Shown piece by piece: positions 2,541-42,942 of a stretch of 64,000 nt of DNA. The translations under genes and the position numbers were made by a program. This DNA is from Caldinitratiruptor microaerophilus (lineage in GTDB: Bacteria; Bacillota; Sulfobacillia; Symbiobacteriales; ZC4RG38). The stretch lies in contig NZ_AP025628.1 in assembly GCF_025999835.1 (NCBI RefSeq), positions 2,046,001 through 2,110,000 of the forward strand, given 5' to 3'. The notes beneath the pieces were generated by a model. The model made no database searches. It was not told the origin of the DNA and saw only the letters and a program-made list of their open reading frames with translations. Every line of letters begins with the position of its first letter. The stretch's first letter is position 1.

Positions 2541-2553
2541 GACGGCTTGGACC

Positions 2554-2583
2554 GGGCAGCAGCCGGCCGCCCGGCTGCTGCCC
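2554..2583 (+). terminator. Hairpin after the UPF0173 gene
   Basis: A perfect 13-bp stem (GGGCAGCAGCCGG against CCGGCTGCTGCCC) with a CCGC loop starts 13 nt after the stop codon. No T tract follows, so it may be a GC-rich terminator or only an mRNA 3'-end stabiliser. Confidence 0.6.
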
Positions 2584-2671
2584 ACGCAACTCCAACGTGC
2601 CGGGACCCCGGGGACCCGGCCCCAGCGGAGTGGGTCCTCGGGGGGCTGCACTGCACCCGCCGGTCGACCCC

Positions 2672-2706
2672 GAAAACGGGCGGGCAGAGCAGATCTCTGC
2701 CCGCCC
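2672..2706 (-). terminator. Terminator of the 2-oxoacid dehydrogenase operon
   Basis: A perfect 12-bp stem (GGGCGGGCAGAG / CTCTGCCCGCCC) with a 5-nt loop lies just downstream of the E2 stop codon. On the minus strand it is followed by GTTTTC, a plausible short U tract. Confidence 0.75.
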
Positions 2707-2722
2707 ACCGAATCCCATGCGA

Positions 2723-6205: not shown

Positions 6206-7618
6206 CTAGATATGGATCGCCCTGCCTTCGGTCGCCAGTGCCGCCTCGCCGAAGATCTCCGAGAGCGTCGGGTGCGGGTGGACCGCCACCGACACCTCCC
6301 AGGCGGTGGCGTTCAGCAGCAGGGCGAGGCCGGCCTCGCTGATGAGGTCCGTCACGTGCGGGCCGATCAGGTGCGCCCCCAGCAGCTCGCCGGTCTTCGC
6401 GTCGGCCACCAGCTTCGCGAAGCCGTCCACGTCGCCGAACACCAGCGCCTTGCCGATCCCCCGGAAGGGGAACTTCCCGACCTTCACCTCGTGCCCGGCC
6501 GCCCGGGCCTCCGCTTCCGTGAGGCCCACCGAGGCCACCTCCGGCCGGGTGTACGTGCACCGGGGGACCTTCTTGAGGTCGACCGGGTGCGGCTCCAGGC
6601 CCGCCATGTGCTCCACGGCGACGATCCCCTGGTGCGCCGCCACGTGCGCCAGGCCGCCCCCGACGACGTCGCCGATCGCATAGATGCCCGGCTGGCCCGT
6701 GCGGCCGTACTCGTCCACCACGATGTAACCCCGGTCGAGCCGGATGCGCTCGAAGTTCTCCAGGCCGATCCCTTCGCTGTTCGGCGCCCGCCCGACCGAC
6801 ACCAGGAGCATCCCGGCCTCCGCCTGCCGCGCCTCCCCGCCGGCCTCGTACCGCAGGGTGACGCGCCCGCCCTCGACGCGGACACTCTGCGGGTCGACCT
6901 TCGCCCCCGTGACGATCTCGATCTTGCGCCGGCGCAGCAGCTTCTCCGCCTCCGCCGAGACCTCCTCGTCCTCCAGCGGCAGGATGCGGGGCAGCATCTC
7001 GAGCACCGTGACCCGCACGCCCAGGTCGGCGTACAGGGAGGCCCACTCCATGCCGATGGCTCCCCCGCCCAGGATCACGACGCTGTCCGGCAGGCGGTCC
7101 CAGTTCACGGCCTCGTCCGAGGTGAAGACGTGCTCCCCGTCGACGGGGATCCCCAGCGTCCGGGGCCGGCTCCCCGTGGCGATGAGGATGTGCTGCGCCT
7201 CGAGCTTCTCCTGCCCGCCTCCGGCGGTCTCGACGGAAACCCAGCCGTTGGGGGTGAAGATGGACGGGGCCATGAGCGTGCCCGTGCCCTCGATCACGGT
7301 CACGCCGTTCTTGCGCAGGAGGCCCTGGACGCCCTTCCAGAGGTTCGTGACGACCTTGTCCTTGCGGGCCAGGACCTGTGCCCAGTTCACGCCCACCTCG
7401 CCGGCCCGGAGGCCGTACTCGGCCGCGTGGGTGAGGTCGTGGTACACCTCCGCGCTGCGCAGGAACGCCTTGGTGGGGATGCAGCCCCGGTGCAGGCACG
7501 TTCCGCCCACCCGGTCGCGCTCCACCACGGCCACCTTCATGCCCAGCTGGCCGGCGCGGATGGCCGCCACGTAACCGCCTGTGCCGCCACCGAGGATGAC
7601 GAGGTCGAACTCGGGCAT
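6206..7618 (-). CDS. lpdA: Dihydrolipoyl dehydrogenase E3
   Basis: A 470-residue flavoprotein disulfide reductase that reoxidises the E2 dihydrolipoyl arm with NAD+. The FAD motif GGGTGGYVAAIRAGQLG is followed by the redox-active cysteines in GGTCLHRGCIPTK (Cys41/Cys46). The NAD motif is GGGAIGMEWASL, the second FAD motif is IYAIGDVVGG, and the dimerisation domain ends with the His-Pro pair of VHPHPTLSE. It is the first gene of the operon, with AGGAG about 10 nt before the ATG and a sigma-54-type promoter about 125 bp upstream. Confidence 0.95.
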   Translation of the reverse strand: MPEFDLVILGGGTGGYVAAIRAGQLGMKVAVVERDRVGGTCLHRGCIPTKAFLRSAEVYHDLTHAAEYGLRAGEVGVNWAQVLARKDKVVTNLWKGVQGLLRKNGVTVIEGTGTLMAPSIFTPNGWVSVETAGGGQEKLEAQHILIATGSRPRTLGIPVDGEHVFTSDEAVNWDRLPDSVVILGGGAIGMEWASLYADLGVRVTVLEMLPRILPLEDEEVSAEAEKLLRRRKIEIVTGAKVDPQSVRVEGGRVTLRYEAGGEARQAEAGMLLVSVGRAPNSEGIGLENFERIRLDRGYIVVDEYGRTGQPGIYAIGDVVGGGLAHVAAHQGIVAVEHMAGLEPHPVDLKKVPRCTYTRPEVASVGLTEAEARAAGHEVKVGKFPFRGIGKALVFGDVDGFAKLVADAKTGELLGAHLIGPHVTDLISEAGLALLLNATAWEVSVAVHPHPTLSEIFGEAALATEGRAIHI

Positions 7619-7743
7619 GCTGTCAGGTCTCCTCTCTTCGTATGGGGCTGCTCCGTCTTTCGCCCCCTTCCGGAACCGTTCCTTCCGAGCCGCTGTGCGC
7701 GGAGGTCACAAGAACGGCTTCGGCTGCCTCGCCCGCACTAGCA

Positions 7744-7759
7744 CGCAAATTCCATGCCA
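7744..7759 (-). promoter_or_regulatory. Sigma-54 -24/-12 promoter of the lpd-bkd operon
   Basis: On the minus strand the sequence reads TGGCATGGAATTTGCG. It matches the consensus TGGCACG-N4-TTGCW at all but one position of the core, with exactly 10 nt between the invariant GG and GC. Transcription would begin near 7733, leaving a leader of about 115 nt before lpdA. Bacillus bkd operons are sigma-L/BkdR dependent (established knowledge), which supports the reading. It has not been tested here. Confidence 0.75.
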
Positions 7760-7901
7760 CCCGCCGGAGTGCCTGCTCGCCTTCTCCGGACGCCCTTCCC
7801 GGCCGGTATGTGCAACTTCTTGCGTAAGTGCGCGGACTTGTGCAGGAATCGGCATGCAGCCCGGTGCCGACGGGGGCGGAAGGCACGCCAGGGTATTGAA
7901 G

Positions 7902-7914
7902 CGATCGATACATC
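7902..7914 (+). promoter_or_regulatory. Candidate enhancer element upstream of the lpd-bkd operon
   Basis: CGATCGATACATC lies about 145 bp upstream of the -24 element. It matches CGATCTATACGTC at 13921-13933, upstream of the other sigma-54 promoter, at 11 of 13 positions. The role as an enhancer-binding-protein site is inference only. Confidence 0.35.
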
Positions 7915-7986
7915 ACGACGAAAAAATCGATTACTCCGATCGATGGCGGCCATGGTATGGTCCTGGTAGGAAGACGAGACGCGGGG

Positions 7987-9042
7987 GTGCACGGAGCCGT
8001 GCTGCGCGTCGCCATCAACGGGTTCGGCCGGATCGGCCGGATGGTTTGCCGCAGGCTACTCCAGAGCCCGCTCCTCCAGGTCGTCGCCGTCAACGCCTCG
8101 TACGACAGCCAGATCCTGGCCCACCTGCTCCGGCGCGACAGCCTCCACGGGGTACTCGACCGCACGGTGGAGGCCGGAGAGGACGCCCTGTGGGTGGACG
8201 GGCAGGAGATCCGCCTCACCCACGAACGCGACCCGGCCCGCCTGCCGTGGGCGGAGATCGGGGTCGACCTGGTCATCGAGGCGACGGGCAAGTTCCGCGG
8301 CGGCGAGGGGGCACAGGCGCACCTGGACGCCGGCGCCGGCCGGGTCATCGTGACCGCGCCGGCCAAGGGTCACGTCGACGCCACCATCGTCTACGGGGTG
8401 AATCACCACACCTTCGACCCCGAACGCCACCGGCTGATCAGCGCCGCCTCGTGCACCACCACCTGTCTGGCGCCCATCGTGAAGGTCCTGCACGAGGCGT
8501 TCCACCTCGAAACCGGTCTCATGACGACCGTCCATTCCTACACGAGCGATCAGAACCTGCTCGACAACCCGCACAAGGACCTGCGGCGCGCCCGCGGCGC
8601 CGGCTTCAACATCATCCCGACCACGACCGGCGCGGCGAAGGCGGTGGGCCTCGTCGTGCCCGAGGTCGCCGGGCGGCTCACGGGCTACGCCCTGCGGGTG
8701 CCGACCCCGGACGTCTCCGTCGTGGACCTGACGGCCCGCTTCCGCGAGCCGGTGACGGTCGAGTCCGTGAACCGCGTCCTGCGCGAGGCGGCCGAGGGGG
8801 AACTCAAGGGGATCCTCGGGTACAGCGAGGAGCCCCTGGTTTCCTCGGACTACGTCGGCGACTCCCGCTCGGGCATCGTCGACGGCCTTTCCACCCTGGT
8901 CGGCCGCGACAACCTGGTCAAGGTCGTGGCGTGGTACGACAACGAGTGGGGCTACTCCTGCCGGGTGGCCGACCTCGCCGAGCACATGGCCCGCACCCTC
9001 CTCCGCGCCGCCGAGGAGGAGACCCCGGTGGCGGCCGGCTAG
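7987..9042 (+). CDS. gap: Type I glyceraldehyde-3-phosphate dehydrogenase
   Basis: NAD(P)-dependent GAPDH. The Rossmann motif INGFGRIGR is at the N-terminus, the catalytic cysteine lies in SAASCTTTCLAPIVKVL, and the C-terminal WYDNEWGYSCRVADL is diagnostic. The start is uncertain: GTG at 7987 follows AGGAAG by 12 nt; GTG at 7999 (VLRVAINGFG) fits the usual N-terminus better but has a poorly spaced GGAG; ATG at 7957 is also in frame. No pgk or tpi follows, so the gene is monocistronic and ends in a strong terminator. An erythrose-4-phosphate dehydrogenase role cannot be excluded by sequence alone. Confidence 0.92.
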   Translation: MHGAVLRVAINGFGRIGRMVCRRLLQSPLLQVVAVNASYDSQILAHLLRRDSLHGVLDRTVEAGEDALWVDGQEIRLTHERDPARLPWAEIGVDLVIEATGKFRGGEGAQAHLDAGAGRVIVTAPAKGHVDATIVYGVNHHTFDPERHRLISAASCTTTCLAPIVKVLHEAFHLETGLMTTVHSYTSDQNLLDNPHKDLRRARGAGFNIIPTTTGAAKAVGLVVPEVAGRLTGYALRVPTPDVSVVDLTARFREPVTVESVNRVLREAAEGELKGILGYSEEPLVSSDYVGDSRSGIVDGLSTLVGRDNLVKVVAWYDNEWGYSCRVADLAEHMARTLLRAAEEETPVAAG

Positions 9043-30593: not shown

Positions 30594-30620
30594 ACGCCAC
30601 GGGGTTCACTCCCGTGGCGT
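30594..30620. terminator. Shared terminator hairpin between DUF169 and glcF
   Basis: A perfect 10-bp stem (ACGCCACGGG / CCCGTGGCGT) with a 7-nt loop lies between the convergent genes. It overlaps the last codons and stop of glcF. There is no strong T tract on either strand. Confidence 0.5.
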
Positions 30621-32012
30621 GTCCGTCAGCGCGCGGTCCAGGACCTGCGCCAGGTGCAGGACCTCCACCTCGGCGCCGAGGCCGTGCGTGCGCACGCCGT
30701 GGGCCATCTGCAGGTGGCACCCCGGGTTCGCCACGACGATGACCCGGGCCCCGGTGGCCGCCGCGTGGCTCATCTTCTCGTCCAGGACCGCGCCGGCCAT
30801 GGCGGGCTGCAGAAGGTTGTAGATCCCCGCGCTGCCGCAGCAGCGGTCGGCCTCCTCCATCTCCACGAAGCGCAGACCCGGGATCGCCCGCAGAAGCTGA
30901 CGGGGCTGCGCCCGCACCCCCTGCCCGTGGGCCAGGTGGCACGAGTCCTGGTAAGTGACGGTGAGGGGCAGCGGCCGGAGCGTGGCGTCGCCGAGGCCGT
31001 GCTCGGCCAGCCACTCGCTCAGGTCCCGGACCCGGGCGGCGAAGGCTGCCGCGGCGGGGTCGTCCGGCAGGAGGTGCCCGTACTCCTTCAGGTGTGCCCC
31101 GCAGCCGCCGGCGGCGTTCACGATCGCGTCCACGGGACCCAGCCGCCCGAACGCCTCGACGTTCTGCCGGGCCAGGCGACGTGCGGCTTCCCGGTCGCCG
31201 CTGTGGGCGTGGAGGGCCCCGCAGCACGTCGCCGCCGCGGGGATCACCACCTCGCAGCCCGTGCGGCTCAGCACGCGCACCGTGGCGAGGTTGACCTCCA
31301 GGTAGAGGGCGTCCTGGATGCAGCCCGGAAAGAAGGCCACGCGGTGCCGGCGCCTGCCCTGCGCCGGGACCACCCAGCCCGACCCGTCCGGTAACGGCCG
31401 GAGGAGCCGCTCCCACTCCGCCCACAGGCGCCGGTCGGGCGCCGGGGGCATGGAAAGGCCCAGCTCCCGCAGGTGAGCCGGCACCAGCCCGGTCGCACGG
31501 CGCAGGAGCGGGCGTGCGGCCGAGGCCAGCCGCACTGCCGCCCGCAGCCGGCCACGGTGCGGGAGCAGGTGCCGGAGGGCCAGGCGCTGGAGCAGGCGGC
31601 CGAGGCGGGAACGCCGCCGCGCCAGGGACGGGGCGATGGCCGACCGCGCCCCCTCGAGGACCCGCCCGTAGCGGATCCCCGAGGGGCACGCCGTCTCGCA
31701 CGCCCGGCAGCCGAGGCAGAGGTCGAGCGGGCCGGCCACGGCGTCCGGGCCAAGGGTGCCCTCGACCAGCGCCCGCACGAGCGCCAGGCGGCCCCGCGGC
31801 GAGGCGGGCTCCAGGCCGGTCTGCCGGTAGGTCGGGCACGCCTCCAGGCAGAAGCCGCACTTCACGCAGCGAAGCGCCTCGTCGTACTCGGCCGCCAGGA
31901 GCACCGCGAGGGGGCCCGCGGCCGCGCCGGCGCCGCGCCCGGCCGCCGCGGCCCCGCCGGGATCGGCAGGGGGGGCGGGCTGGAGGGCGACCTCCCTCTC
32001 CGGCTCAGCCAC
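30606..32012 (-). CDS. glcF: Glycolate oxidase iron-sulfur subunit GlcF
   Basis: A 468-residue protein with two N-terminal 4Fe-4S sets (CVKCGFCLEACPTY and CLGCRACETACPSG) and two C-terminal cysteine-rich CCG domains (CCGALHAHSG, and DSCHLAHG with CCGSAGIYN). It transfers electrons from the flavoprotein GlcD to the quinone pool. GTG at 32012 (VAEPEREVAL) is preferred over GTG at 32021 for its spacing to GGGGGG. The gene overlaps glcD by 8 bp. No glcE is present, so this is the two-subunit arrangement; lactate rather than glycolate is possible. Confidence 0.9.
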   Translation of the reverse strand: MAEPEREVALQPAPPADPGGAAAAGRGAGAAAGPLAVLLAAEYDEALRCVKCGFCLEACPTYRQTGLEPASPRGRLALVRALVEGTLGPDAVAGPLDLCLGCRACETACPSGIRYGRVLEGARSAIAPSLARRRSRLGRLLQRLALRHLLPHRGRLRAAVRLASAARPLLRRATGLVPAHLRELGLSMPPAPDRRLWAEWERLLRPLPDGSGWVVPAQGRRRHRVAFFPGCIQDALYLEVNLATVRVLSRTGCEVVIPAAATCCGALHAHSGDREAARRLARQNVEAFGRLGPVDAIVNAAGGCGAHLKEYGHLLPDDPAAAAFAARVRDLSEWLAEHGLGDATLRPLPLTVTYQDSCHLAHGQGVRAQPRQLLRAIPGLRFVEMEEADRCCGSAGIYNLLQPAMAGAVLDEKMSHAAATGARVIVVANPGCHLQMAHGVRTHGLGAEVEVLHLAQVLDRALTDTPRE

Positions 32013-33456
32013 GGGTCCCACCCCCCGTCGGGGCCGGCCCGGGCTCGGCCGCCGGCGCCGCCTCCGTGGCCTGGGGTCCGTCGAGCGCCATCTTGCCCGG
32101 GTTGAGGATGTTCAGCGGGTCCAGGGCCCGCTTCACGGCCCGCATGACCTCCATGCCGACGGGGCCGACCTCCCACTCGAGGAACGGCGCCTTCAGGAGA
32201 CCGATCCCGTGCTCGCCGGTGAGGGTGCCACCGAGGTCGAGCGCCACCCGGGCCAGGTCCGCCAGCCAGGCCTCGACGCGGGCCCTCTCCTCGGGCCGGC
32301 GGGGATCCATCACGACGTTCGGGTGCAGGTTCCCATCCCCGGCGTGGCCGTAGACGACCATCGGCAGGTCGCGGTAGCGCTCGCGCAGGTACTGGAAGCG
32401 CCGGATGAAGGCCGGGATCTCGCCGGGCGGAACGGTCACGTCCTCCCCCACCTTGATCGGCCGGATGCGGGTGAGGGAGGGGTTGATCGCGCGGCGGGCC
32501 TGCCAGAGCTCGGCCGCCTGGGCGGCATCGGCGGCCACCCGCACCGCGCTCGCCCCGTGAGCCTCGCACAGCTCGGCCACCCGGCGGGCCTGGCGGTCGA
32601 CGGCCTCGGCGAAGCCGTCGACCTCGATGATGAGGACGGCCTCCGCTTCTACCGGCAGCCCGGCCTGGAGGTAGTCTTCGACAACCCGGAGGGCGGTCTG
32701 GTCGACGAGCTCGAGGGTCGTGGGCACGATCCCCTTCGCCACGATGTCCCCCACGGCAGCGCTGGCGTCCGCCAGCCGGGGGAACACCCCGAGGAGGGTC
32801 CGCTGCGTCTCGGGCTGGGGAATGAGGCGGAGCGTCGCCCCGGTGATGACCCCGAGCGTCCCCTCGGAACCCACCAGAAGGCGCGTCAGGTCGTAGCCCG
32901 TCACGTTCTTGACCGTCTTGCCGCCGGTCCGGAGCACCTCGCCGGAGGCCAGGACGACCTCGAGGCCCAGCACGTAGTCCCGGGTCACGCCGTACTTGAA
33001 GCACCGGGGGCCGCCGGCCCCCGTGGCGATGTTGCCGCCGATCGTGGAGACCTTCGCCGACGCCGGGTCCGGCGGGTAGAACAGGCCCTCCCGGGCGACC
33101 TGCCGCTGCAGTTCGGCGGTCACGACCCCCGGCTCGACCACGGCGAGGAGGTTCCGGGTGTCGATGTCCACGATGCGCCGCATCCGGGTGAGGCTGAGCA
33201 GGATCCCGCCCCGGACGGGGACCGCCCCGCCCGCCAGCCCGGTGCCGGCGCCCCGCGGGGTGACCGGGATGCGCTCGGCCGCCGCCAGCCGCACGATCTC
33301 CTGGACCTGCCGGGTCTCCGCCGGCAGCACCACCACGTCCGGGCGCCCCGTGTGCCACGTCGCGTCGAAGGAGTAGCAGACCAGGTCCTGCGGCTCGGTC
33401 AGCACGTACTGCGGGCCCACGATGGACTGCAAGGCCTGGATCACGCGCGCGTGCAC
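32005..33456 (-). CDS. glcD: Glycolate/lactate oxidase FAD subunit GlcD
   Basis: A 483-residue PCMH-type flavoprotein. The FAD-binding region shows TPRGAGTGLAGGAVP, PASAKVSTIGGNIATGAGGPRC and GGKTVKNVTGYDL; the C-terminal domain shows YGHAGDGNLHPNV and GEHGIGLLKAPFL, typical of GlcD and D-lactate dehydrogenases. GTG at 33456 (VHARVIQALQ) has GGGAGGGG 6 nt upstream. The C-terminal tail is Pro/Ala-rich and overlaps glcF. Confidence 0.92.
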   Translation of the reverse strand: MHARVIQALQSIVGPQYVLTEPQDLVCYSFDATWHTGRPDVVVLPAETRQVQEIVRLAAAERIPVTPRGAGTGLAGGAVPVRGGILLSLTRMRRIVDIDTRNLLAVVEPGVVTAELQRQVAREGLFYPPDPASAKVSTIGGNIATGAGGPRCFKYGVTRDYVLGLEVVLASGEVLRTGGKTVKNVTGYDLTRLLVGSEGTLGVITGATLRLIPQPETQRTLLGVFPRLADASAAVGDIVAKGIVPTTLELVDQTALRVVEDYLQAGLPVEAEAVLIIEVDGFAEAVDRQARRVAELCEAHGASAVRVAADAAQAAELWQARRAINPSLTRIRPIKVGEDVTVPPGEIPAFIRRFQYLRERYRDLPMVVYGHAGDGNLHPNVVMDPRRPEERARVEAWLADLARVALDLGGTLTGEHGIGLLKAPFLEWEVGPVGMEVMRAVKRALDPLNILNPGKMALDGPQATEAAPAAEPGPAPTGGGTRG

Positions 33457-33578
33457 AGCCGACCCCTCCCGTGCCACGATCTGTCATAGCTTCCATGCCC
33501 GGCACCATGCATCCTGCCGTGTGATGGGGGACCGCCTCCGACCGATCGTATCCGCGCGCGATCATCGGTCGATAGGCT

Positions 33579-33639: not shown

Positions 33640-35058
33640 ATGGAACGTCAGGAACTGAAGGCGCTCGAGGGTCCATTCGTGGAGTTCAAGCGCCAGTTGG
33701 ACGACCCGCTCGCCCTGGCCCGCACCCTGATCGCATTCGCCAACGGGCGGGGTGGGCGCATCATCGTCGGAGTGGACGATCGGACACGGGAGCCCGTGGG
33801 CATCCCGAGCGACGACGTTCCCTCGCTCGAGGAGTGGGTGACCAGCGTCGCTTACGACCGGTGCGAACCGCTCATCGTCCCGGTGGTCCGCACGGAGTGG
33901 TGCGAAGGACATCTTCTCTTGGTCATCCACGTCTACCCCGGCCCGGAGAAACCCTATCACCTCAAGGGAAGGCCGCCGTCCGAGTCCACGTACATCCGAG
34001 TGGGTTCGACGAGCCGGCTCGCCGACCGGGAGACGATCCGCCAACTGGAGCGGGAGAGCCGCAACATCGGGTTCGACGAGACGCCGGTCTACGACGCTAC
34101 CCCGGACGACCTCGACACGGGGCTGATCAAGGAGTACCTCCGATCGCGCCACCAGCACCGTGGCACTCCACCGGAGGACGTGACGCCCGAACTTCTACGC
34201 AAGCTCCGGGCCACCGTGAGCGAGCAAGGCCGCGTCTACCCCACGGTGGCGGGGATCCTCCTCTTCACGACCCAGCCGGATCGGTTCCTCCCGAACGCCC
34301 GCATCCGGTGCGCCCGGTTCAAGGGGACCACGACCGACGAGTTCATCGACCAGCAGGAGATCACGGGTCCCCTCTGGGAACAGGTCGACCAGGCACTCAA
34401 GTTCGTACGGCGGAACATCCGGCTCAGCGGCCGGATCGAAGGGGTGCGGCGGGTGGACCGGTACGAATACCCCCTCGATGCCGTTCGCGAAGCCGTGGTC
34501 AACGCGGTCGTACACAGGGACTACTCCATATCCGGTCAGGACATCCGGCTCGCCATCTTCGACGACTGCATCGAGATCACCAGCCCGGGCCTCCTGCCGA
34601 CCGGGATCTCGGTTGAAGAACTGGGAACCGGGGCTTCCGAGGTGCGAAACCGGGTCATCGCCCGAACACTGAAGGACATGGGCCTGATCGAGGAATGGGG
34701 GCGCGGCACGCGGATCATGAAAGAGGCGATGGCCGCTTGGGGCCTTCCCCCTCCCCGATTCGAGGAGAAGGGTCGCGATTTCCAGGTGACCCTCATCGGC
34801 CCGGGGCCCGGCGGGGTGGGGGCGATTCCCCCCGACGTGGCGGCCCGCCTCACCCCGCGGCAGCAGGAGATCTTGCACCTGGCCCTGGCGCGCGGCGGGG
34901 TCACCGCCGGCGACGTGCAGAGCGCCTTCGGTCTCTCACGGGCCGCCGCCTACCTCCACCTGCGCGGACTCGTCGACAAGGGCCTGCTGCAGCCCGTGGG
35001 CACGAGGCGGTGGCGGCGCTACGTCCCCGTCACATGGCCCAGCCGCCGTTCACGCTGA
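33640..35058 (+). CDS. AlbA_2/Schlafen-type regulator with GHKL ATPase-like and winged-helix domains
   Basis: A 472-residue protein. Residues 1-125 form an AlbA_2 (Schlafen-like) domain (EFKRQLDDPLALARTLIAFA...GRIIVGVDD); residues about 260-380 resemble a HATPase_c_4 domain (LDAVREAVVNAVVHRDYS, IEITSPGLLPTGIS, EEWGRGTRIMKEAM); residues about 410-465 form a winged helix (LTPRQQEILHLALARG, DVQSAFGLSRAAAYLHLRGL). Such proteins are transcriptional regulators or stress and defence-associated; the role here is unknown. Codon choice looks slightly more A/T-rich than in its neighbours. Its 3' end overlaps the convergent SDR gene by 29 bp. Confidence 0.82.
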   Translation: MERQELKALEGPFVEFKRQLDDPLALARTLIAFANGRGGRIIVGVDDRTREPVGIPSDDVPSLEEWVTSVAYDRCEPLIVPVVRTEWCEGHLLLVIHVYPGPEKPYHLKGRPPSESTYIRVGSTSRLADRETIRQLERESRNIGFDETPVYDATPDDLDTGLIKEYLRSRHQHRGTPPEDVTPELLRKLRATVSEQGRVYPTVAGILLFTTQPDRFLPNARIRCARFKGTTTDEFIDQQEITGPLWEQVDQALKFVRRNIRLSGRIEGVRRVDRYEYPLDAVREAVVNAVVHRDYSISGQDIRLAIFDDCIEITSPGLLPTGISVEELGTGASEVRNRVIARTLKDMGLIEEWGRGTRIMKEAMAAWGLPPPRFEEKGRDFQVTLIGPGPGGVGAIPPDVAARLTPRQQEILHLALARGGVTAGDVQSAFGLSRAAAYLHLRGLVDKGLLQPVGTRRWRRYVPVTWPSRRSR

Positions 35059-35806
35059 CCACCTGCCCGGTGATGTACGAGGCGCCGTCGGAGGCGAGGA
35101 ACAGGACCGCCTCCGCGACGTCCTCCGGCCGGCCGATGCGGCCGAGGGGGATCCGGCGAACGAGGTCCTCCCGGTCCGCGGGGGTGAGGTCGGCGAGCAT
35201 CTCCGTCTCGATGGCTCCGGGGGCGACGGCGTTCACCGTGATGCCCGCCGGGGCCAGCTCGCGCGCCAGGCCCCGGGCGTAGCCGGCGAGCGCCGCCTTG
35301 GCGGCCGCGTAAGCGGCCTCACCGGCGGCGCCGGTGAGGCCCCAGATCGACGAGATGAGGATGATCCGGCCGGCGCCTGACGCCCGCAAGTAGGGCAGGG
35401 CCGCCCGCACGCAGGCCACGGCGCCCCCCAGGTGGACGGCCCACAGCCGGTCCCACTCCGCCGGCGTGGTGTCCAGGATGAGCTTCTCCAGGGCGACCCC
35501 GGCGTTGTGAACCAGGACGTCCAGCCGGCCGAAGGTCCGGGCCGCCGCCTCGACGAGCCGCCGGGCCTCGCGGGGGTCGGCCACGTCCGCCTGAGAGGCG
35601 AAGGCGGGGGGCACGTCCCCGGTGCGCTGCGCGCCGGCGCCAAGTCGCCGGATCGCCTCGACGGTCGTCTGGGCCCCGGCCACATCGTGGCTATAGTTGA
35701 CGCACACGGCCGCGCCGGCACGGGCCAGCGAGAGGGCGATCGCCCTGCCGATCCCGCGCGACGCCCCTGTCACCAGCGCCGCCCTGCCGGCGAGCGGCCC
35801 CACCAT
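35030..35806 (-). CDS. fabG: SDR-family 3-oxoacyl-ACP reductase-like oxidoreductase
   Basis: A 258-residue classical short-chain dehydrogenase. The cofactor motif is TGASRGIGRAIALSLARAG, NAG is in LVHNAGVALEKL, the catalytic Ser lies in IILISSIWG, the Tyr/Lys pair in AAYAAAKAAL, and the C-terminus GQVVSVNGGWAM is FabG-like. A short extra segment follows beta-3 (RTGDVPPAFASQADV). It lies 17 bp after the TRAP permease gene on the same strand, so it may act on the imported substrate. The fabG assignment is by family, not by context. Confidence 0.82.
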   Translation of the reverse strand: MVGPLAGRAALVTGASRGIGRAIALSLARAGAAVCVNYSHDVAGAQTTVEAIRRLGAGAQRTGDVPPAFASQADVADPREARRLVEAAARTFGRLDVLVHNAGVALEKLILDTTPAEWDRLWAVHLGGAVACVRAALPYLRASGAGRIILISSIWGLTGAAGEAAYAAAKAALAGYARGLARELAPAGITVNAVAPGAIETEMLADLTPADREDLVRRIPLGRIGRPEDVAEAVLFLASDGASYITGQVVSVNGGWAM

Positions 35807-35823: not shown

Positions 35824-37788
35824 TCAGGCCGACGCCTGCTGCTGCCCTCCGGCGCGGGACCGCAGCCCCAGGTACTGCCACACCAGCGCGGCGGCGAACA
35901 GGCTGAACCCGACGACGTCCCCGACCGGGGTCGGGTAGATGAGCAGGAGCCCTGCCGCCACAAGCATAACACGCTGCAGCCACGAGGCGTGACCGAGGAG
36001 CCACCCGCCGGCGCCGGCCACGAGGGCGGTGATGCCCACCACGGACGTCGCCACGCCCAACAGCACCTGCGGCCACGAGCCGATGAGCAGCAGGCTCACG
36101 CCCTCCGGCCGCAGGGTGAACATGAAGGGCACGATGAACGCCGGCAGGGCGTACTTCCACGTCTTCCACATCGTCTTGTACGGGTTCCCGCCGGTGATGG
36201 CGGACACCGCGAAGCACGAGAGGGCCGTGGGCGGCGAGACCTCGGACAGCAGCGCATAGTAGAAGATGAACATGTGGGCCGCCGGTTCCGGCACCCCGAG
36301 CCGGATGAGCGCCGGGGCGGTGATCACCGCCGCCACGATGTACGAGGCCGTGATCGGGAGCGCCAGCCCGAGGATCAGCAGCACGATGGCCGTGTACAGC
36401 AGGGTCAGGAACAGGTTCCCCCCGGCCAGGTCGATGATGATGCTGGAGAACTTGAGCCCCAGGCCGGTGAGGTTGACGACGCCGATCAGGATGCCTGCCG
36501 TCGCCGTGGTGGCGGCCACGCCCAGGACCGAGAGCGCGCCCTGCTCCAGGGCGGCGAGGAGCTTCTTCGGCGTGAGGGCCGTGTCACGGCGCAGGTAGCT
36601 GACCAGCACCGCCACCAGCATGCTCCACAGCACCGCCCACATGGCCGAGAAGCCCAGCGCCAGGAAGATCACGATGACGACGAGGCTGGTGAAGTGGAAC
36701 CAGTAGGTGCGCACGAGCTGCCCCAGGGGCTTCGTCTCCATGGGGACCTCGCGCGTCCCGAGCTTGACCGTGTCCAGCTCGATCATCAGCAGGATCGACA
36801 GGTAGTAGAGGAGCGTGGGCAGGAGCGACCACTTGATCACTTCGAGGTAGGAGACCCGCGTGAGCTCGGCGATCAGGAACGAGGCCGCACCCATCACCGG
36901 CGGCGACAGCACGGCCCCGATGCCGCCGGCGGACAGGATCGCCCCGGCCGACTCCCGGTCGTAGCCGGCCTTGCGGAGGATCGGGTAGGTGATGGACCCC
37001 AGGGTGACCGTGGTGGCCACCCCGCTGCCGGACGGACCGCCGAGGAGGAACGAGGCGAGCGTGACCGTCCGCCCCGCACCGCTCCGGCGCCGGCCCATGG
37101 CGGCGAACGAGAAGTCGACGAAGAAGCTGCCGGCGCCGCTCATGTCGAGGATCGCACCGTACAGGGTGAACAGGATGATGAACGTGGCGGAAACCCCGAT
37201 CGGTACCCCGAAGATGCCCTCGAGGGTCATGTACTGCAGGCCGACCAGCCGGGTGAGCGGGTACCCGCGATGGGTCCAGGGCGCCGGCAGGTAGGGGCCG
37301 GCGAAGGCGTACACCAGCGCCAGGATGGCGAGGATGGGCAGGATGGGCCCCGTCGTCCGCCGGCCGGCCTCCAGGACCAGGACGATCGTCACGATGCCCA
37401 GCACCAGGTCCAGGGTGTTGGGCGTCACGGAGCGGTAGACGAACTCGTCGAAGTCCACCACGATGTAGGCCATGGCGGCGACGCCTGCCAGGGCCAGCAC
37501 CCAGTCCAGGACCGTGAGCCGCCGCAGCCGCTTCGAGGGCGGGTACAGGAGGAACGCGAGGAAGAACAGGAATCCCACGTGCACGGCCCGCAGGAGCTGG
37601 GCCGGCACCGTGCCGGCAGCGGAGTACAGGCCCCACAGGCTCATGAGGATCGCCGCGATGCGGATCACCCAGCGCATCGGACCCTCGAACTTGCGCGTGG
37701 CGCCCTCGTACTCCTCGATGATCTCCTGGACGCGCGCCTCGTCCAGGACCGCGCCGGTCTCCTGGAGATCCGGATCCGCGGCGGTCAC
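35824..37788 (-). CDS. TAXI-type TRAP transporter fused permease (4TM-12TM)
   Basis: A 654-residue membrane protein combining the small (DctQ-like) and large (DctM-like) TRAP membrane subunits, as usual in TAXI systems. The N-terminal 30 residues are cytoplasmic; many hydrophobic segments follow. Landmarks include GGPSGSGVATTVTLGSI and AGGIGAVLSPPVMGAASFLIAE of the transport domain. GTG at 37788 overlaps the DUF1850 stop (GTGA), implying translational coupling. It probably imports a carboxylate using a Na+ or H+ gradient; the substrate is unknown. Confidence 0.9.
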   Translation of the reverse strand: MTAADPDLQETGAVLDEARVQEIIEEYEGATRKFEGPMRWVIRIAAILMSLWGLYSAAGTVPAQLLRAVHVGFLFFLAFLLYPPSKRLRRLTVLDWVLALAGVAAMAYIVVDFDEFVYRSVTPNTLDLVLGIVTIVLVLEAGRRTTGPILPILAILALVYAFAGPYLPAPWTHRGYPLTRLVGLQYMTLEGIFGVPIGVSATFIILFTLYGAILDMSGAGSFFVDFSFAAMGRRRSGAGRTVTLASFLLGGPSGSGVATTVTLGSITYPILRKAGYDRESAGAILSAGGIGAVLSPPVMGAASFLIAELTRVSYLEVIKWSLLPTLLYYLSILLMIELDTVKLGTREVPMETKPLGQLVRTYWFHFTSLVVIVIFLALGFSAMWAVLWSMLVAVLVSYLRRDTALTPKKLLAALEQGALSVLGVAATTATAGILIGVVNLTGLGLKFSSIIIDLAGGNLFLTLLYTAIVLLILGLALPITASYIVAAVITAPALIRLGVPEPAAHMFIFYYALLSEVSPPTALSCFAVSAITGGNPYKTMWKTWKYALPAFIVPFMFTLRPEGVSLLLIGSWPQVLLGVATSVVGITALVAGAGGWLLGHASWLQRVMLVAAGLLLIYPTPVGDVVGFSLFAAALVWQYLGLRSRAGGQQQASA

Positions 37789-38348
37789 TCCGCGCTTCTG
37801 GTCGCGCAATCCGCAGTCCCCCTCCCCAACCAGTACAGCGACAGCCCGAAGGGTACGAGGCGAACCCTGAGCGTGGCCGGCCCCCACGCGCCGGCGACGG
37901 CGCTGAGCGGCAGCCGGCACGTCCGGTCCTCGTACGTCCGACGGCCCACCGGCGTAGCCGCCACGGTGAGGCGGCGGTACGGGAACCGGAACCCGTACAG
38001 CCGGGTGCGGCCCGGCACGACCTCGGCGCGCGCACCCGGGATGTCGTAGTAGCCGGCGATGCGCTCGTCCGGAGCGACCACCTCGTAGAGCACGAGCCGG
38101 CCCCACAGGTCGACCTCGAACGCCTCGGTCACGGGTACATCGAAGAGCGAGTGCTCGTAGCGGAGTGCGAAGCGATAGCCGGGGTACACCGGACGGCGAA
38201 GGGGGGCCCCGCGGCCGGGGCTGCCCACCTCCAGCACCGGCACCGGCAGGAGGGCGGCGAGCAGCACGAACAGGAGAAGGAGGGCGCCGGGCCGCACACC
38301 GACCCGACGCCCGGTCCGGGGACGCCGGCTCACCGTCCGGCTAGACAC
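37785..38348 (-). CDS. DUF1850 membrane-anchored protein of the TAXI-TRAP locus
   Basis: A 187-residue DUF1850 protein. An N-terminal hydrophobic segment (GALLLLFVLLAALLPVPVL) acts as an uncleaved anchor or signal. The rest is extracytoplasmic and beta-rich (YRFALRYEHSLFDVPVTEAF, YGFRFPYRRLTV). DUF1850 genes frequently sit between TAXI receptor and permease genes (family knowledge), suggesting an accessory subunit. GTG at 38348 overlaps the receptor stop by 8 bp; GTG at 38333 is an alternative start. Confidence 0.8.
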   Translation of the reverse strand: MSSRTVSRRPRTGRRVGVRPGALLLLFVLLAALLPVPVLEVGSPGRGAPLRRPVYPGYRFALRYEHSLFDVPVTEAFEVDLWGRLVLYEVVAPDERIAGYYDIPGARAEVVPGRTRLYGFRFPYRRLTVAATPVGRRTYEDRTCRLPLSAVAGAWGPATLRVRLVPFGLSLYWLGRGTADCATRSAE

Positions 38349-39402
38349 CCTTCTCCTTGTAGAACTTCATGGCACCGGGGTGGAACTCGACGGGCGACCC
38401 CTTCGTCGCGGTCTGGAGCGTGAGCTTCTTCGCCTCGGGGTGGACTGCCTCGAGTTCCGCCTTGTTGTCGAACATGGCCTTCAGGATGTTGTAGGCCAGA
38501 TCCTCCGGCATGTCCCGGTGCACGACCAGCAGGTTCGGCACGCCGGCCACGATCACTTCCTGATCGACGCCGGGGTACACGCCGGGCGGCACGGGCACCG
38601 GCGTGTAGAGCGGCCCGTACTCCTTGACCAGCGCGTCGATGATGTCGTCCGTCGGCAGGAGCTTGATCTTCACGCCCGGAGTGGAGGCCAGCTCGAGCAC
38701 GCCGGCCGTGGGAAGCCCGCCCGACCAGAAGAAGGCGTCGATCTTGCCGTCCTTCAGGGCGTCCGCCGACTCGCCCACGCCAAGCCGCTCCCGCTTGATC
38801 CCGCTCTGCGGGTCGATGCCGTAGGCCTTCAGGACCCGCTCGGCGATGACCTCGGTGCCGCTGTTGGGCGACCCCGTGGAGACGCGCTTGCCCGCCAGGT
38901 CCTTCACCGAGTTGATGCCGCTGTCCGCTTTCACCACGATGTGGGTGTAGTTGGCGTAGAGTACCGCAAGCGCCTGGATGGGCAGGGGCTCCTTGAACTT
39001 GCCCTTCCCCTTCACCGCGTCGTAGGCCGAGTCGCCCAGGGTGAACGCCACGTCCGCAGACTTCTGGGCGAGAAGGTTCAGGTTCTCGACGGAGGCCGAC
39101 GTCACCTCTGCCGTGGCCTCGACGCCCGGCACGTGCTTGGAGAGAACCTGCGCCAGACCGCCGCCGTAAACGTAGTAGACGCCGCTGGTGCCGCCGGTGG
39201 CGATCGAGATTCGCTTGACCGCCCCGCTGGACGCCTGCTGGCCGCCCTGCGCCGGCGCCGCCCCGCTCGAGCTCGCCGCCGGGGCGCTACCGCCCGTGCC
39301 GCCCTGTCCTCCCGAAGCCGGGGCGGCCGGTTTCTGTCCGCAGGCAGACACGAGGACCGAGAGCGCGAGGACGAATGGTACGACCAACCGTGCGCGTTTC
39401 AC
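38341..39402 (-). CDS. TAXI-family TRAP transporter substrate-binding lipoprotein
   Basis: A 353-residue receptor. The lipobox is LSVLVSAC (Cys near residue 21), followed by a Gly/Ser/Ala-rich tether of about 40 residues. The mature domain starts ISIATGGTSGVYYVYGGGLAQVLSKHV, the TAXI signature, with VENLNLLAQKSADVAFTLGDSAYDA and RVSTGSPNSGTEVIAERVL. It delivers substrate to the fused permease downstream. The upstream 213 bp hold an A/T-rich promoter-like stretch with a tandem repeat that may be bound by the response regulator. Confidence 0.92.
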   Translation of the reverse strand: MKRARLVVPFVLALSVLVSACGQKPAAPASGGQGGTGGSAPAASSSGAAPAQGGQQASSGAVKRISIATGGTSGVYYVYGGGLAQVLSKHVPGVEATAEVTSASVENLNLLAQKSADVAFTLGDSAYDAVKGKGKFKEPLPIQALAVLYANYTHIVVKADSGINSVKDLAGKRVSTGSPNSGTEVIAERVLKAYGIDPQSGIKRERLGVGESADALKDGKIDAFFWSGGLPTAGVLELASTPGVKIKLLPTDDIIDALVKEYGPLYTPVPVPPGVYPGVDQEVIVAGVPNLLVVHRDMPEDLAYNILKAMFDNKAELEAVHPEAKKLTLQTATKGSPVEFHPGAMKFYKEKGV

Positions 39403-39550
39403 CCCAGGAACCCCCTCCCGGGCAGTCCCCCACCGCCCGGCGGGCGAACCCGCCGGGGCGGCCGGAGGCGTGCGCCCTTGGTTCTTCTTTCGTGTCCAAA
39501 TTACACAACCGCGAACGTAAACCTGTTTTGCATCTTTACACGCTTGTCCT

Positions 39551-39568
39551 GTGCGTTTTGTGCGTTTT
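39551..39568 (-). promoter_or_regulatory. Tandem 9-bp repeat upstream of the TAXI receptor gene
   Basis: GTGCGTTTT occurs twice head to tail on the plus strand (AAAACGCAC on the coding strand), in an otherwise unusually A/T-rich patch (39490-39585) upstream of the receptor gene. It is a candidate binding site for the response regulator encoded next door. No clear -35/-10 pair could be assigned. Confidence 0.4.
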
Positions 39569-39615
39569 GCTCATAAAGATCACGAAGGCCGGCGTCGGGC
39601 CCACCGAAAGAGGGA

Positions 39616-40299
39616 TCACGCTTTCGGCCCGATCCACCGGTAGGACCGCTCCGGCCGCCCGACCGTGCCGTACACCGGGCTCACCTCCACCCGGCCGGCG
39701 CCGGCCAGGTACCGGAGGTAGCGCTGGGCCGTGCTCCGGCTCACCCCGGCCGCTGCCGCAACGGTCTCGACCCCGACCGCCTCGCCGGCCGCCCGCAGAG
39801 CCGCCTCGATCCGCTCGAGGGTGAGCGGGTCGATGCCCTTGGGAAGGGACGACATCCCCTCACGCCGCCCCACCAGCGCGTAGAGCCGGTCGATCGCCGC
39901 CTGCTCCACCTCCCCTTCCCGGGGCATCTCGCTCCGGTAGCTGCGGTAGCGCTGCAGCGCCTCGTGGAGCCGCTCCATCCGGAAGGGCTTGAGGAGGTAG
40001 TCAACGACGCCCGCGCGCACCGCCTGCTGCACCTCCGCCGCCTCCCGGGCCGCGGAGATCACGATCACGTCCGTGCCCAGGCCGAGGGCCCGGATGCGGC
40101 GCAGGACCTCCTGGCCGCTGATGTCGGGAAGGTACAGGTCGAGGATCACGAGATCGGGCTTGAGGGCCTCCACCTGGTCGAGGGCCTCCCGCCCGGAGCG
40201 GGCCGTGCCGACCACCTGGAAGCCTTCCACGCGGCCCACGTGGCGGGCGTGGATCTGAGCGACCATGAAGTCATCGTCCACGACGAGCACCCGGATCAT
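39616..40299 (-). CDS. CitB/DcuR-family response regulator
   Basis: A 227-residue response regulator. The receiver domain (1-120) has the acidic pair DDD at 8-10, the phosphoacceptor Asp in LVILDLYLPD (near 54), Ser in VISAA, and Lys in YLLKPF. The C-terminal part (about 160-215) is a winged helix typical of CitB/DctR regulators (VETVAAAAGVSRSTAQRYLRYLAGAG). Its start overlaps the kinase 3' end by 29 bp. It probably activates the TAXI-TRAP genes directly downstream. Confidence 0.92.
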   Translation of the reverse strand: MIRVLVVDDDFMVAQIHARHVGRVEGFQVVGTARSGREALDQVEALKPDLVILDLYLPDISGQEVLRRIRALGLGTDVIVISAAREAAEVQQAVRAGVVDYLLKPFRMERLHEALQRYRSYRSEMPREGEVEQAAIDRLYALVGRREGMSSLPKGIDPLTLERIEAALRAAGEAVGVETVAAAAGVSRSTAQRYLRYLAGAGRVEVSPVYGTVGRPERSYRWIGPKA

Positions 40300-41947
40300 C
40301 GCGCCGGCCCCCCTCTCCGTCCCCGCAAGGCAGGCGCACCACGAAGCGGGCGCCGCCCCCCTCCGACTCGCAGACCGTCACGTCCCCGCCCACCTGACTC
40401 ACCCGGCGCCGCACCAGGGCGAGCCCCAGGCCGCGGTGCCCCGGCGACTCGGACCGGGTGCTGAACCCCTCGGCGAAGATAGCCTCCCGCAGCGCCGGCG
40501 GCACCCCGGGGCCGCCGTCGGACACTTCGAGGACGGCGTCCGGGCCCGTGTCGTCCAGGCGGACCCGGACCCAGCGCCGCTCCTCGGGGAGGTTCTGGAC
40601 CGCCTCCACGGCGTTCTCGATCAGGTTGCCGAGGACCGTGACGAGGAGGCTCCGCCCGAAGCGCTCCGGCGCCCGGGTGAGCCGGCTCGCCGGGTCCAGC
40701 TCCAGGCGCACGCCCAGCTCGGCCGCCCGGTTGTACTTGCCCAGGATCAGGGCGGCCACCGTGGTGTCCGGCACCGCCCGCGCCAGGTGGTCCAGGAGCC
40801 GCTGGTGCTGCTCCTCGGTCCGCATGATGAACTCCAGCGCCTCGTCGGCCGCCCCGAGCTGGATGAGTCCGGCGATCGTGTGCAGGCGGTTGGTGAACTC
40901 GTGCGTCTGCGCCCGCAGCGCCTCGCTGTACCTGCGGATGTCCGTGAGCTCCCTGGCGATGCGTCGGATCTCGCTCCGGTCGCGGAAGCTGGCCACCACG
41001 CCGGCGATGCGGCCGCCGATGTGGATGGGGACCTGGTTGGCCACCACCTCGGCGTCCCCCAGGAGCATCTCCTGGTCGTACTCCGGCTCCCCGGTCTCGA
41101 GCACCCGGAGCATGCGGCAGCCCGGCAGGATCTCGCCGACGTGCCGGCCGACCGGGCTCTCCTCCAGGTCCATCAGGCGCTGCGCCTCCCGGTTGCACAC
41201 CGTGATGCGCCCCTCCGCGTCGATGGCCAGGATCCCCTCGCGGATGGCGGCCAGCACGGCGTCTCGCTCCTCGACGATCCGGGCGATCTGCGGCGGCTCC
41301 AGACCGAAGATCTCCCGCTTGATCCCCCGCGCCAGCCGGGCAGCGCCCAGCGAGCCCAAGATGAGCGCCGCGGCGGCGATGAAGGCCGCCTCGCGGCCGA
41401 ACCGCAAGGTGAGGAGGCGCACGTCCTGCACCCGGAATCCCACGGAGACGAGCCCGAGGATCTCGCCGTCCCGCCCGTAGATCGGGGCGATGCCGGCCAG
41501 CGCGGTCTCGTTCGCTTCCCGGATCCGCGTGTAGTACGCGGCCCCCTCGTACAGGGCCGGGCCGTAGTCGAGACTGGCGGTCGCCTTGCCCACCCACTCC
41601 GGAACCGGGTGCGACAGCCGGGTGCCGCTCTGGTCGAGCACCACCACGAAGTCGGCCCCGACGAGGCGACGCACGCGCTCGGCCAGCGGAGCCACCACCG
41701 GGATGGGGTCGCGGGTGTATAGGCTATCGGCGATGCCCGGCATGGCGGCCACGGTGCGGGCGATGTCGAGCGCCCGCGTTCCGATCTGCCGCTCCAGGGC
41801 CTCGGCCGCCCGGTACCAGAGCGTGCTCACCGTGAGCACGAGGAGCCCCAGGAGGAGGGCCAGCACGAGGAAGGTGACCTTCCGCTCCAGGCCCATCCGC
41901 CCGAGGCCGGTGGCGGCCCTCGGGAGGGCGGCCCCGCCGGCCGTCAC
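40271..41947 (-). CDS. CitA/DcuS-like sensor histidine kinase
   Basis: A 558-residue membrane kinase. Two transmembrane segments (about residues 25-45 and 180-200) flank an extracytoplasmic PAS/Cache-like sensor (GADFVVVLDQSGTRLSHPVPEW, GLVSVGFRVQDV). A cytoplasmic PAS domain follows (GILAIDAEGRITVCNREAQRLMD), then the SpoOB-type His box (LRAQTHEFTNRLHTIAGLIQLG) and the ATPase domain with NLIENAVEAV, DGGPGVPP and GHRGLGLALVRR. GTG at 41947 overlaps the upstream TAXI stop (GTGA). The ligand is probably a carboxylate, sensed alone or through the TAXI protein. Confidence 0.92.
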   Translation of the reverse strand: MTAGGAALPRAATGLGRMGLERKVTFLVLALLLGLLVLTVSTLWYRAAEALERQIGTRALDIARTVAAMPGIADSLYTRDPIPVVAPLAERVRRLVGADFVVVLDQSGTRLSHPVPEWVGKATASLDYGPALYEGAAYYTRIREANETALAGIAPIYGRDGEILGLVSVGFRVQDVRLLTLRFGREAAFIAAAALILGSLGAARLARGIKREIFGLEPPQIARIVEERDAVLAAIREGILAIDAEGRITVCNREAQRLMDLEESPVGRHVGEILPGCRMLRVLETGEPEYDQEMLLGDAEVVANQVPIHIGGRIAGVVASFRDRSEIRRIARELTDIRRYSEALRAQTHEFTNRLHTIAGLIQLGAADEALEFIMRTEEQHQRLLDHLARAVPDTTVAALILGKYNRAAELGVRLELDPASRLTRAPERFGRSLLVTVLGNLIENAVEAVQNLPEERRWVRVRLDDTGPDAVLEVSDGGPGVPPALREAIFAEGFSTRSESPGHRGLGLALVRRRVSQVGGDVTVCESEGGGARFVVRLPCGDGEGGRRDDPGARRGR

Positions 41948-42942
41948 TGCAGGATCCCCGCTTCCCGGAAGAACCGCGCGGCGCCCGGGTGGAGCGGGAC
42001 CACCCCGGTGATGCCGCGCAGGGCAGCCGTGAGCTGGAGCCGGCCGGCCGGGTGCGCCCGGGCCAGTTCGTCCGACTCGGCGTACAGGGTCCGGACCACG
42101 TCGTAGGTCAGGTCGTCCGGCAGGTCGGCCCGGCAGATGAGGATGTTCGACACGGCGACGGTGCGGACGGGCTCCGACTGACCGGGGTAGGTGCCCGCCG
42201 GGATCGTGTAGGGCGCGTACCACGGGTGCCGGGCGATGAGCGCCCGGACCCGGTCCTCCTCCAGCCCGATCAGCCGCGCGACGCCGGAGGACAGCGCGTC
42301 CACCACCGCGGGGGTGGGCACGCCCCCGGCGATGACCGCCGCGTCTGCCTTCCCCCGGGCCAGGGCCTCGACGCTCTCCCCGTAGCCCAGGTAGAGCGCC
42401 TCGGTGTTGCCGCCTTCGCCGTAACGCAGCCCGTAGACCTCGAGCAACTCCCGGGCATTGATCTCGGTGGCGCTGTCCCGGGGGCCGGGCGCCAGGGGGC
42501 GGCCAGCCATGTCGGCGACCCGGGTCACCCCACTCCCTTCCCTGGCGAGGACGTGGATCACGTTCGGGTAGAGGTAGGTGAGCCCCCGCACGGCCGTCTG
42601 CCGCGGGCGGCCGCTCAGCGGTCCCGCGGCGTTCACCGCGTAGTAGACGATGCCGCTCTGGCCGAAGGCGATCTCCGCTTCGCCCCGCGCCAGCAGGTCG
42701 ACGTTCTCGGGGGTTCCCGCGGTGGCCAGCGCCACGAACCTCCGGCCGAGCCGCTGTTCCAGCACCCGGGCCATCGCCTGGCCGAGCGGGTAGTACACGC
42801 CGGCGGGGGTGGCGGTGGCGATGCGGACCGCGGGCGGAAGCGAGGCCGGCGGGGAGGCCGGCTGAGCGGGGCGGCGGGCGTACAGGCCGCCCAGCACGAC
42901 GAGCGCCCCTGCCGCCACGGCCGCGACGGGCTGCCAGCGCAC
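41944..42942 (-). CDS. TAXI-family receptor coupled to the sensor kinase
   Basis: A 332-residue TAXI solute-binding protein with an N-terminal hydrophobic anchor (VAAVAAGALVVLGGLYARR) but no lipobox. The core signature is VRIATATPAGVYYPLGQAMARVLEQ, with PENVDLLARGEAEIAFGQSGIVYYA and DSATEINARELLEVYGLRYG. GTG at 42942 follows AGAGGGGG by 9 nt; the frame is open upstream, but no earlier start has a ribosome binding site. Its stop overlaps the kinase start, so it is probably the periplasmic sensor partner of the kinase rather than the transport receptor (inference). Confidence 0.85.
   Translation of the reverse strand: MRWQPVAAVAAGALVVLGGLYARRPAQPASPPASLPPAVRIATATPAGVYYPLGQAMARVLEQRLGRRFVALATAGTPENVDLLARGEAEIAFGQSGIVYYAVNAAGPLSGRPRQTAVRGLTYLYPNVIHVLAREGSGVTRVADMAGRPLAPGPRDSATEINARELLEVYGLRYGEGGNTEALYLGYGESVEALARGKADAAVIAGGVPTPAVVDALSSGVARLIGLEEDRVRALIARHPWYAPYTIPAGTYPGQSEPVRTVAVSNILICRADLPDDLTYDVVRTLYAESDELARAHPAGRLQLTAALRGITGVVPLHPGAARFFREAGILQ

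Follow-up and report, generated by a model that had tools for sequence, protein, structure and literature searches.

In Bacillus subtilis the dct genes lie in one cluster with the gene for their transporter, and DctB belongs to the DctP family of binding proteins. DctB is a membrane co-receptor that the sensor kinase DctS needs, and a review describes DctB, DctS and the transporter DctA as a tripartite unit (PMC6978683). BctC and TctC are binding proteins that reportedly deliver ligand to a sensor kinase, which in turn induces the transporter (PMC5812351, PMC9602780). According to a 2022 survey, no more than about ten pairs of binding protein and sensor kinase have been characterized, and further families are expected to take part (PMC9602780). 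Here we describe a locus of Caldinitratiruptor microaerophilus, within a 64,000-nucleotide stretch (the window) of a 3.6 Mb genome assembled as one contig, in which a gene for a TAXI-family binding protein, TAXI-1, directly precedes the gene of a CitA/DcuS-type sensor kinase. We put at about 0.6 the probability that TAXI-1 binds the ligand as co-receptor of a CitA-type kinase that lost its own site. This idea draws support from a conserved gene trio with its overlap, a surplus TAXI gene, lost citrate residues, and related kinases with neighbouring binding proteins.

The TAXI-kinase-regulator trio and its recurrence

All genes of the locus are on the minus strand, in the order TAXI-1, kinase, regulator, a 213-nucleotide gap, TAXI-2, DUF1850-like gene and fused TRAP permease:

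41944-42942, minus: TAXI-1, proposed sensory binding protein; 332 amino acids, GTG start, without lipobox; TIGR02122, PF16868
41944-41947, minus: TAXI-1 stop codon overlapping the kinase start codon, four nucleotides (GTGA), read from the sequence; ATGA counterpart in locus L034
40271-41947, minus: CitA/DcuS-type sensor histidine kinase; 558 amino acids from GTG; sCache_3_2, PAS, SPOB_a, HATPase_c
39616-40299, minus: CitB/DcuR/DpiA-type response regulator; Response_reg and HTH_64
39403-39615, minus: gap between regulator and TAXI-2, 213 nucleotides, candidate control region with tandem AAAACGCAC
38341-39402, minus: TAXI-2, lipoprotein, predicted TRAP binding protein; 353 amino acids, TIGR02122 332 bits, lipobox VSAC
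37785-38348, minus: DUF1850-like protein; PF08905 below cut-off, homologues similarly placed in other TAXI-TRAP operons
35824-37788, minus: TRAP transporter fused permease; TIGR02123 566 bits, cut-off 320.65

Further overlaps join kinase and regulator (29 nucleotides), TAXI-2 and the DUF1850-like gene (8 nucleotides), and the latter and the permease (4 nucleotides). A sequence-only reading of the window had named two TAXI genes and a CitA-type kinase with its regulator, and all are present: TAXI-1 and TAXI-2 reach 265.7 and 332 bits against TIGR02122 (cut-off 84.35), the kinase carries sCache_3_2, PAS, SPOB_a and HATPase_c, and the regulator Response_reg and HTH_64. That reading had also called TAXI-1 and the kinase translationally fused; the GTGA overlap at 41944-41947 stands, but it is no fusion. 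An alternative ATG start for the kinase lies at 41896.

The arrangement goes beyond chance, as it recurs, four-nucleotide overlap included, in a second species (G005; contig C37, locus L034, and also L067, a contig of a metagenome-assembled genome). Identities to the window are 46% for the TAXI protein, 50% for the kinase and 58% for the regulator, and the overlap reads ATGA. There the trio is followed by a DASS symporter (TIGR00785, 241.8 bits; cut-off 198.6). G005 has one TAXI match, and in its assembly, which is 88% complete, no fused TRAP permease scores above the cut-off (best 22.4 bits against 320.65), which leaves its TAXI protein without a TRAP partner there. In the window's genome, five TAXI genes face four fused permeases above cut-off; four TAXI genes each adjoin one of these permeases, and TAXI-1 is the surplus gene, the sole one of the five without a fused permease of its own.

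Two surveys make TAXI-kinase coupling a rare arrangement. In the taxonomic order, three of eight genomes encode full-length kinases of this type: the window's genome has two, and G005 and G004 have a single one apiece; across the class (154 genomes), eight kinases in seven genomes pass an E-value of 1e-60, and among the contexts read only the window's genome (G000) and G005 show TAXI coupling. For the phylum, 398 genomes were surveyed and only the best candidates per genome scored, which gave 71 DcuS-type kinase loci, 72 with that of G004, partial hits lower in the table being left out. One of the 72 has a TAXI gene in its stretch (L090, as TAXI-permease-kinase) and none has a TAXI gene overlapping the kinase. 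The second survey, a search of the 398 genomes with the TAXI pair, gave matches in 140 genomes at 1e-40. Among the other, automatically fetched TAXI loci, 28 of 29 show a fused permease (L171 ends at a contig end), and in larger stretches a fused permease adjoins the TAXI gene in 20 of 20. A contig scan with the TAXI pair yielded only four relatives, one of them G005 again, because exact peptide stretches were required. No TAXI-kinase overlap was seen in three inspected plasmid records out of 431 with a TAXI match, and searches of the order and class around G209 and G060 (1 and 13 genomes) brought no further cases.

TAXI-1 matches its family well (PF16868, 1.1e-73), its nearest solved structures are 8u79 and 1us4 (E 1e-46), and its AlphaFold model has a confident core (mean predicted local distance difference test score 90). 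TAXI-1 lacks a lipobox; its N terminus has a hydrophobic stretch of 18 residues and then Arg-Arg, and the signal peptide may be cleaved. The membrane anchor that the sequence-only reading gave TAXI-1 is conjectural. A lipobox pattern is found in 41 of 47 TAXI N-termini, a count that includes a distrusted match within the hydrophobic stretch of the G005 protein. Membrane-anchored TAXI proteins reportedly take part in transport, to go by the title of a 2023 paper by Roden. In the tree, TAXI-1 and the G005 TAXI protein form one clade (support 0.987), sister to the permease-linked L172 (0.943), and TAXI-2 falls into a different clade; we rejected the idea that TAXI-1 is a recent duplicate of TAXI-2, as the clades differ.

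The nearest TAXI-1 relatives with readable context all adjoin fused permeases, and TAXI-1 thus descends from transport proteins. It could have remained one, that is, a second transport binding protein for the TRAP permease (in G005, for the DASS symporter) that only shares a transcript with the two-component genes, since TAXI proteins are reported to serve non-TRAP symporters as well, as in TAXI-GltS (PMC12344293). We consider this unlikely: besides being the only TAXI gene of its genome without a fused permease and belonging to another clade than TAXI-2, TAXI-1 stays ahead of the kinase gene in both species, whereas the family of the transporter behind them changes. The same change, from TRAP to DASS, speaks against a signal that derives from transporter activity, with TAXI-1 as an adaptor between transporter and kinase. 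Such signalling has precedents, DctA being reported to convert DcuS to a responsive state (PMC8307970) and DctB, DctS and DctA to form their tripartite unit (PMC6978683), but at this locus we regard it as very improbable.

The kinase ectodomain and a proposed co-receptor

The closest model of the kinase is PRK11086 (DcuS/MalK), below its cut-off (402 bits against 520). Its sCache_3_2 ectodomain is complete (E 9e-28), with Geobacillus CitA as the best PDB match, and its catalytic motifs are intact (His349, Asn441, Asn445). The citrate contacts of Klebsiella CitA include R66, H69, R107 and K109, whose exchange for Ala is reported to raise the dissociation constant 38- to >300-fold (PMC3353115). 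At these four columns the window kinase has R, H, A and I (A151 and I153 at the R107 and K109 positions), and has thus lost two of the four residues; the G005 kinase has R, A, A and V. Of 74 kinases, 65 have Arg at the R107 column; both TAXI-coupled ones have Ala. A set of 76 kinases (the 74 and four more, minus L140 and L133) has the four-residue signature RHRF in 53 and RHRK, in which all four citrate residues are kept, in four (L110, L129, L137 and L200). The RHRK kinases form one clade with the TAXI-coupled kinases and L131/L132 (0.991; L200 as sister at 0.45; midpoint root).

We propose that ligand-loaded TAXI-1 would dock on the sCache ectodomain and so set kinase activity, both the docking and the direction of the signal being conjectural. 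The ectodomain would have descended from the citrate-binding CitA domain, minus two citrate-coordinating residues. Phosphate would then go from the kinase to the regulator, which may control the nearby transporter genes through a putative target promoter, and the ligand might be an organic acid, perhaps a 2-hydroxy acid. That the regulator switches on the TAXI-TRAP operon, as the sequence-only reading supposed, is likewise conjectural. With less than even odds, we can go one step further and suggest that the kinase gave up direct binding after it gained a dedicated TAXI protein, its ectodomain becoming a docking surface and TAXI-1 the obligate ligand-binding subunit of a TRAP-independent receptor kinase.

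The residue loss fits outsourced ligand binding, though it is no general mark of binding-protein-linked kinases. Several observations count against a co-receptor role of TAXI-1, among them the TAXI-GltS precedent mentioned above. The window kinase retains Arg110 and His113 (CitA R66 and H69), of which the His is missing from the G005 kinase. Many DctP-linked kinases retain the R107-column Arg, and among the 76 kinases loss of this Arg shows no association with a nearby binding protein (Fisher p 0.32; L140 and L133 dropped, TctC labels assigned by eye, sequences not independent). Residues 1-36 of the TAXI-1 AlphaFold model are of low confidence and mostly disordered, with no N-terminal helix. 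Finally, the survey of TAXI genes beside CitA-type kinases that the sequence-only reading had suggested recovered the trio in G005, but showed a rare coupling, found in two species only. A general rule by which a nearby binding protein means a lost kinase Arg is unsupported by the Fisher count.

The complete ectodomain and the Arg/His pair kept in the window kinase would also suit direct sensing through an altered sCache pocket, with TAXI-1 incidental or a ligand buffer. The R107-column Arg is absent in ten kinases, in three of which the stretch encodes no binding protein, so that Arg loss alone implies no partner. However, the TAXI-1/kinase gene overlap is conserved in both species and the His corresponding to CitA H69 is also gone in G005, which makes direct sensing quite unlikely in our judgement.

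Two further DcuS-type kinases with degenerate ligand residues (L128, L130) lie divergent from ATP synthase genes.

Relation to described binding-protein-assisted systems

TctDE-type kinases and regulators belong to a different family from those of the CitA/DcuS type. The likening of the locus to TctC/TctDE-like systems gains support as regards the co-receptor idea; as closest precedent TctC/TctDE gives way to DctB-DctS-DctR. As in the latter system (with DctA), a CitA/DcuS-family kinase, a CitB/DcuR-family regulator and a binding protein are encoded in the same cluster as a transporter. Unlike there, the binding protein is a TAXI protein rather than a DctP-family member (TIGR02122 and PF16868 matches), and its gene directly precedes the kinase gene with a four-nucleotide overlap. 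The locus shares with BctC-BctDE and TctC-TctDE the proposed presentation of ligand by a binding protein to a kinase, but BctC also serves transport as a binding protein, and TctC-TctDE differs in its binding protein family (TctC versus TAXI) and from the SPOB_a kinase and HTH_64 regulator found here. CitA-CitB has the same ectodomain, kinase and regulator families and represents the nearest kinase group; the locus departs from it by the R107 to A and K109 to I changes and by the extra TAXI gene. TAXI-2 with its fused permease is standard for TAXI-TRAP systems, whose TAXI family and predicted fold TAXI-1 shares; unlike TAXI-TRAP and TAXI-GltS proteins, TAXI-1 lacks a dedicated permease and is tied to a kinase.

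A DctP-like protein, detected with a profile built from eight such proteins, occurs in 33 of the 72 DcuS-type kinase loci, mostly as a lipoprotein directly after the regulator, and seven loci have two (L099, L103, L117, L120, L135, L136, L139). Because of DctB-DctS-DctR, and of DctP- and TctC-like proteins at many related loci, we take the working principle of a binding-protein-assisted kinase to be known; what would be new is the TAXI family in that role. In the open-licence PMC literature we found no report of kinase-coupled TAXI proteins, though subscription papers could hold one. The locus offers a TAXI case of a binding protein-kinase pair, with G005 as a second-species control, and, within one genome, a naturally occurring pair of proposed sensory and transport TAXI proteins to compare. 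At the level of residues it predicts no citrate binding by the kinase on its own, and it may lead to the ligands of poorly characterized TAXI proteins.

Across L083-L141, the DctB-like architecture is widespread and mostly uncharacterized, and some loci carry a TRAP operon with a further DctP. By eye, L131 (4331-5302) and L132 (8299-9276) have a CitA-group kinase whose regulator gene is immediately followed by one for a TctC-like protein and then by a single CitM-like permease gene; the TctC-like protein, too, resembles a co-receptor. L202 and L203 lie, again by eye, among TctC-like genes. In L202 the genes of kinase and regulator flank a second TctC-like gene (6970-8064, opposite strand), the first being the TctC gene in a TctCBA operon; at the R107 column this kinase has His. 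A Pseudosulfitobacter plasmid (L195, 5914-12507) presents a different kind of TAXI-TRAP/two-component neighbourhood, in which genes for TAXI, TRAP permease and DUF1850 are followed by those for an ATP-binding protein and a sigma-54 regulator.

Transport operon, control region and ligand

The best models for the regulator are DcuR and DpiA, both below cut-off (DcuR 148.8 bits against 262). In the gap between regulator and TAXI-2, AAAACGCAC occurs in tandem (39551-39559 and 39560-39568), and this 18-nucleotide tandem is found once genome-wide with up to three mismatches allowed. As a conserved operator it was not found in the G005 locus L034, and a scan for promoters and terminators gave nothing beyond chance.

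TAXI-2, the DUF1850-like gene and the permease form a TAXI-TRAP operon, in that TAXI and fused permease genes stand together in one operon. TAXI-2 had been described as a lipoprotein for transport, next to DUF1850 and the fused permease; its lipobox and the permease confirm this, and the DUF1850 assignment is weak by itself. The DUF1850-like protein scores 17.3 bits against PF08905 (E 0.006; cut-off 27), and we assign it tentatively, from its position and from homologues that score better. In G001, from the family of the window's genome, the three transport genes occur without the trio (L039). Because G005 has the trio with a DASS symporter and G001 the transporter without the trio, the two are separable modules.

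In VcGluP, Y45 and Q93 are reported as the two residues whose Ala mutants lost most affinity (PMC11574862). TAXI-1 matches them with Tyr50 and Gln95; in our alignment TAXI-2 has Leu at the Q93 position, and at the Y200 position the two proteins carry Ile (TAXI-1) and Trp (TAXI-2). Since pockets and clades differ, a single ligand for both TAXI proteins, as first envisaged, is doubtful. Genes for a LarA-type racemase, Ldh_2 and/or D-2-hydroxyacid dehydrogenase, partly assigned by sequence clusters, lie near the permease-linked TAXI-1 relatives L173-L177, L187 and L190, and none of them near L172, the nearest relative. These neighbours suggest, as a guess, a hydroxy acid as the TAXI-1 ligand. In L190, a galactarate/altronate dehydratase-type gene (2139-3296) stands beside the TAXI-TRAP genes together with LarA-like and D-2-hydroxyacid dehydrogenase genes, where sugar-acid or sulfolactate breakdown is possible.

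On the 3' side of the TAXI-TRAP operon, the window encodes GlcD-like and GlcF-like oxidase proteins (30606-33477, minus strand; 493 and 274 bits, both below cut-off). As a ligand clue these are weak, the genome having at least three GlcD-like genes and GlcD-like genes occurring in 3 of 20 TAXI stretches. Two genes separate them from the operon: after the permease, an SDR gene (35030-35767, minus strand) reaching 241.3 bits with the EF-P 5-aminopentanone reductase YmfI model (cut-off 238), and a gene (33640-35058, plus strand) for a protein with Schlafen AlbA_2 and RecG C-terminal-type (HATPase_c_4) domains, likely a transcriptional regulator.

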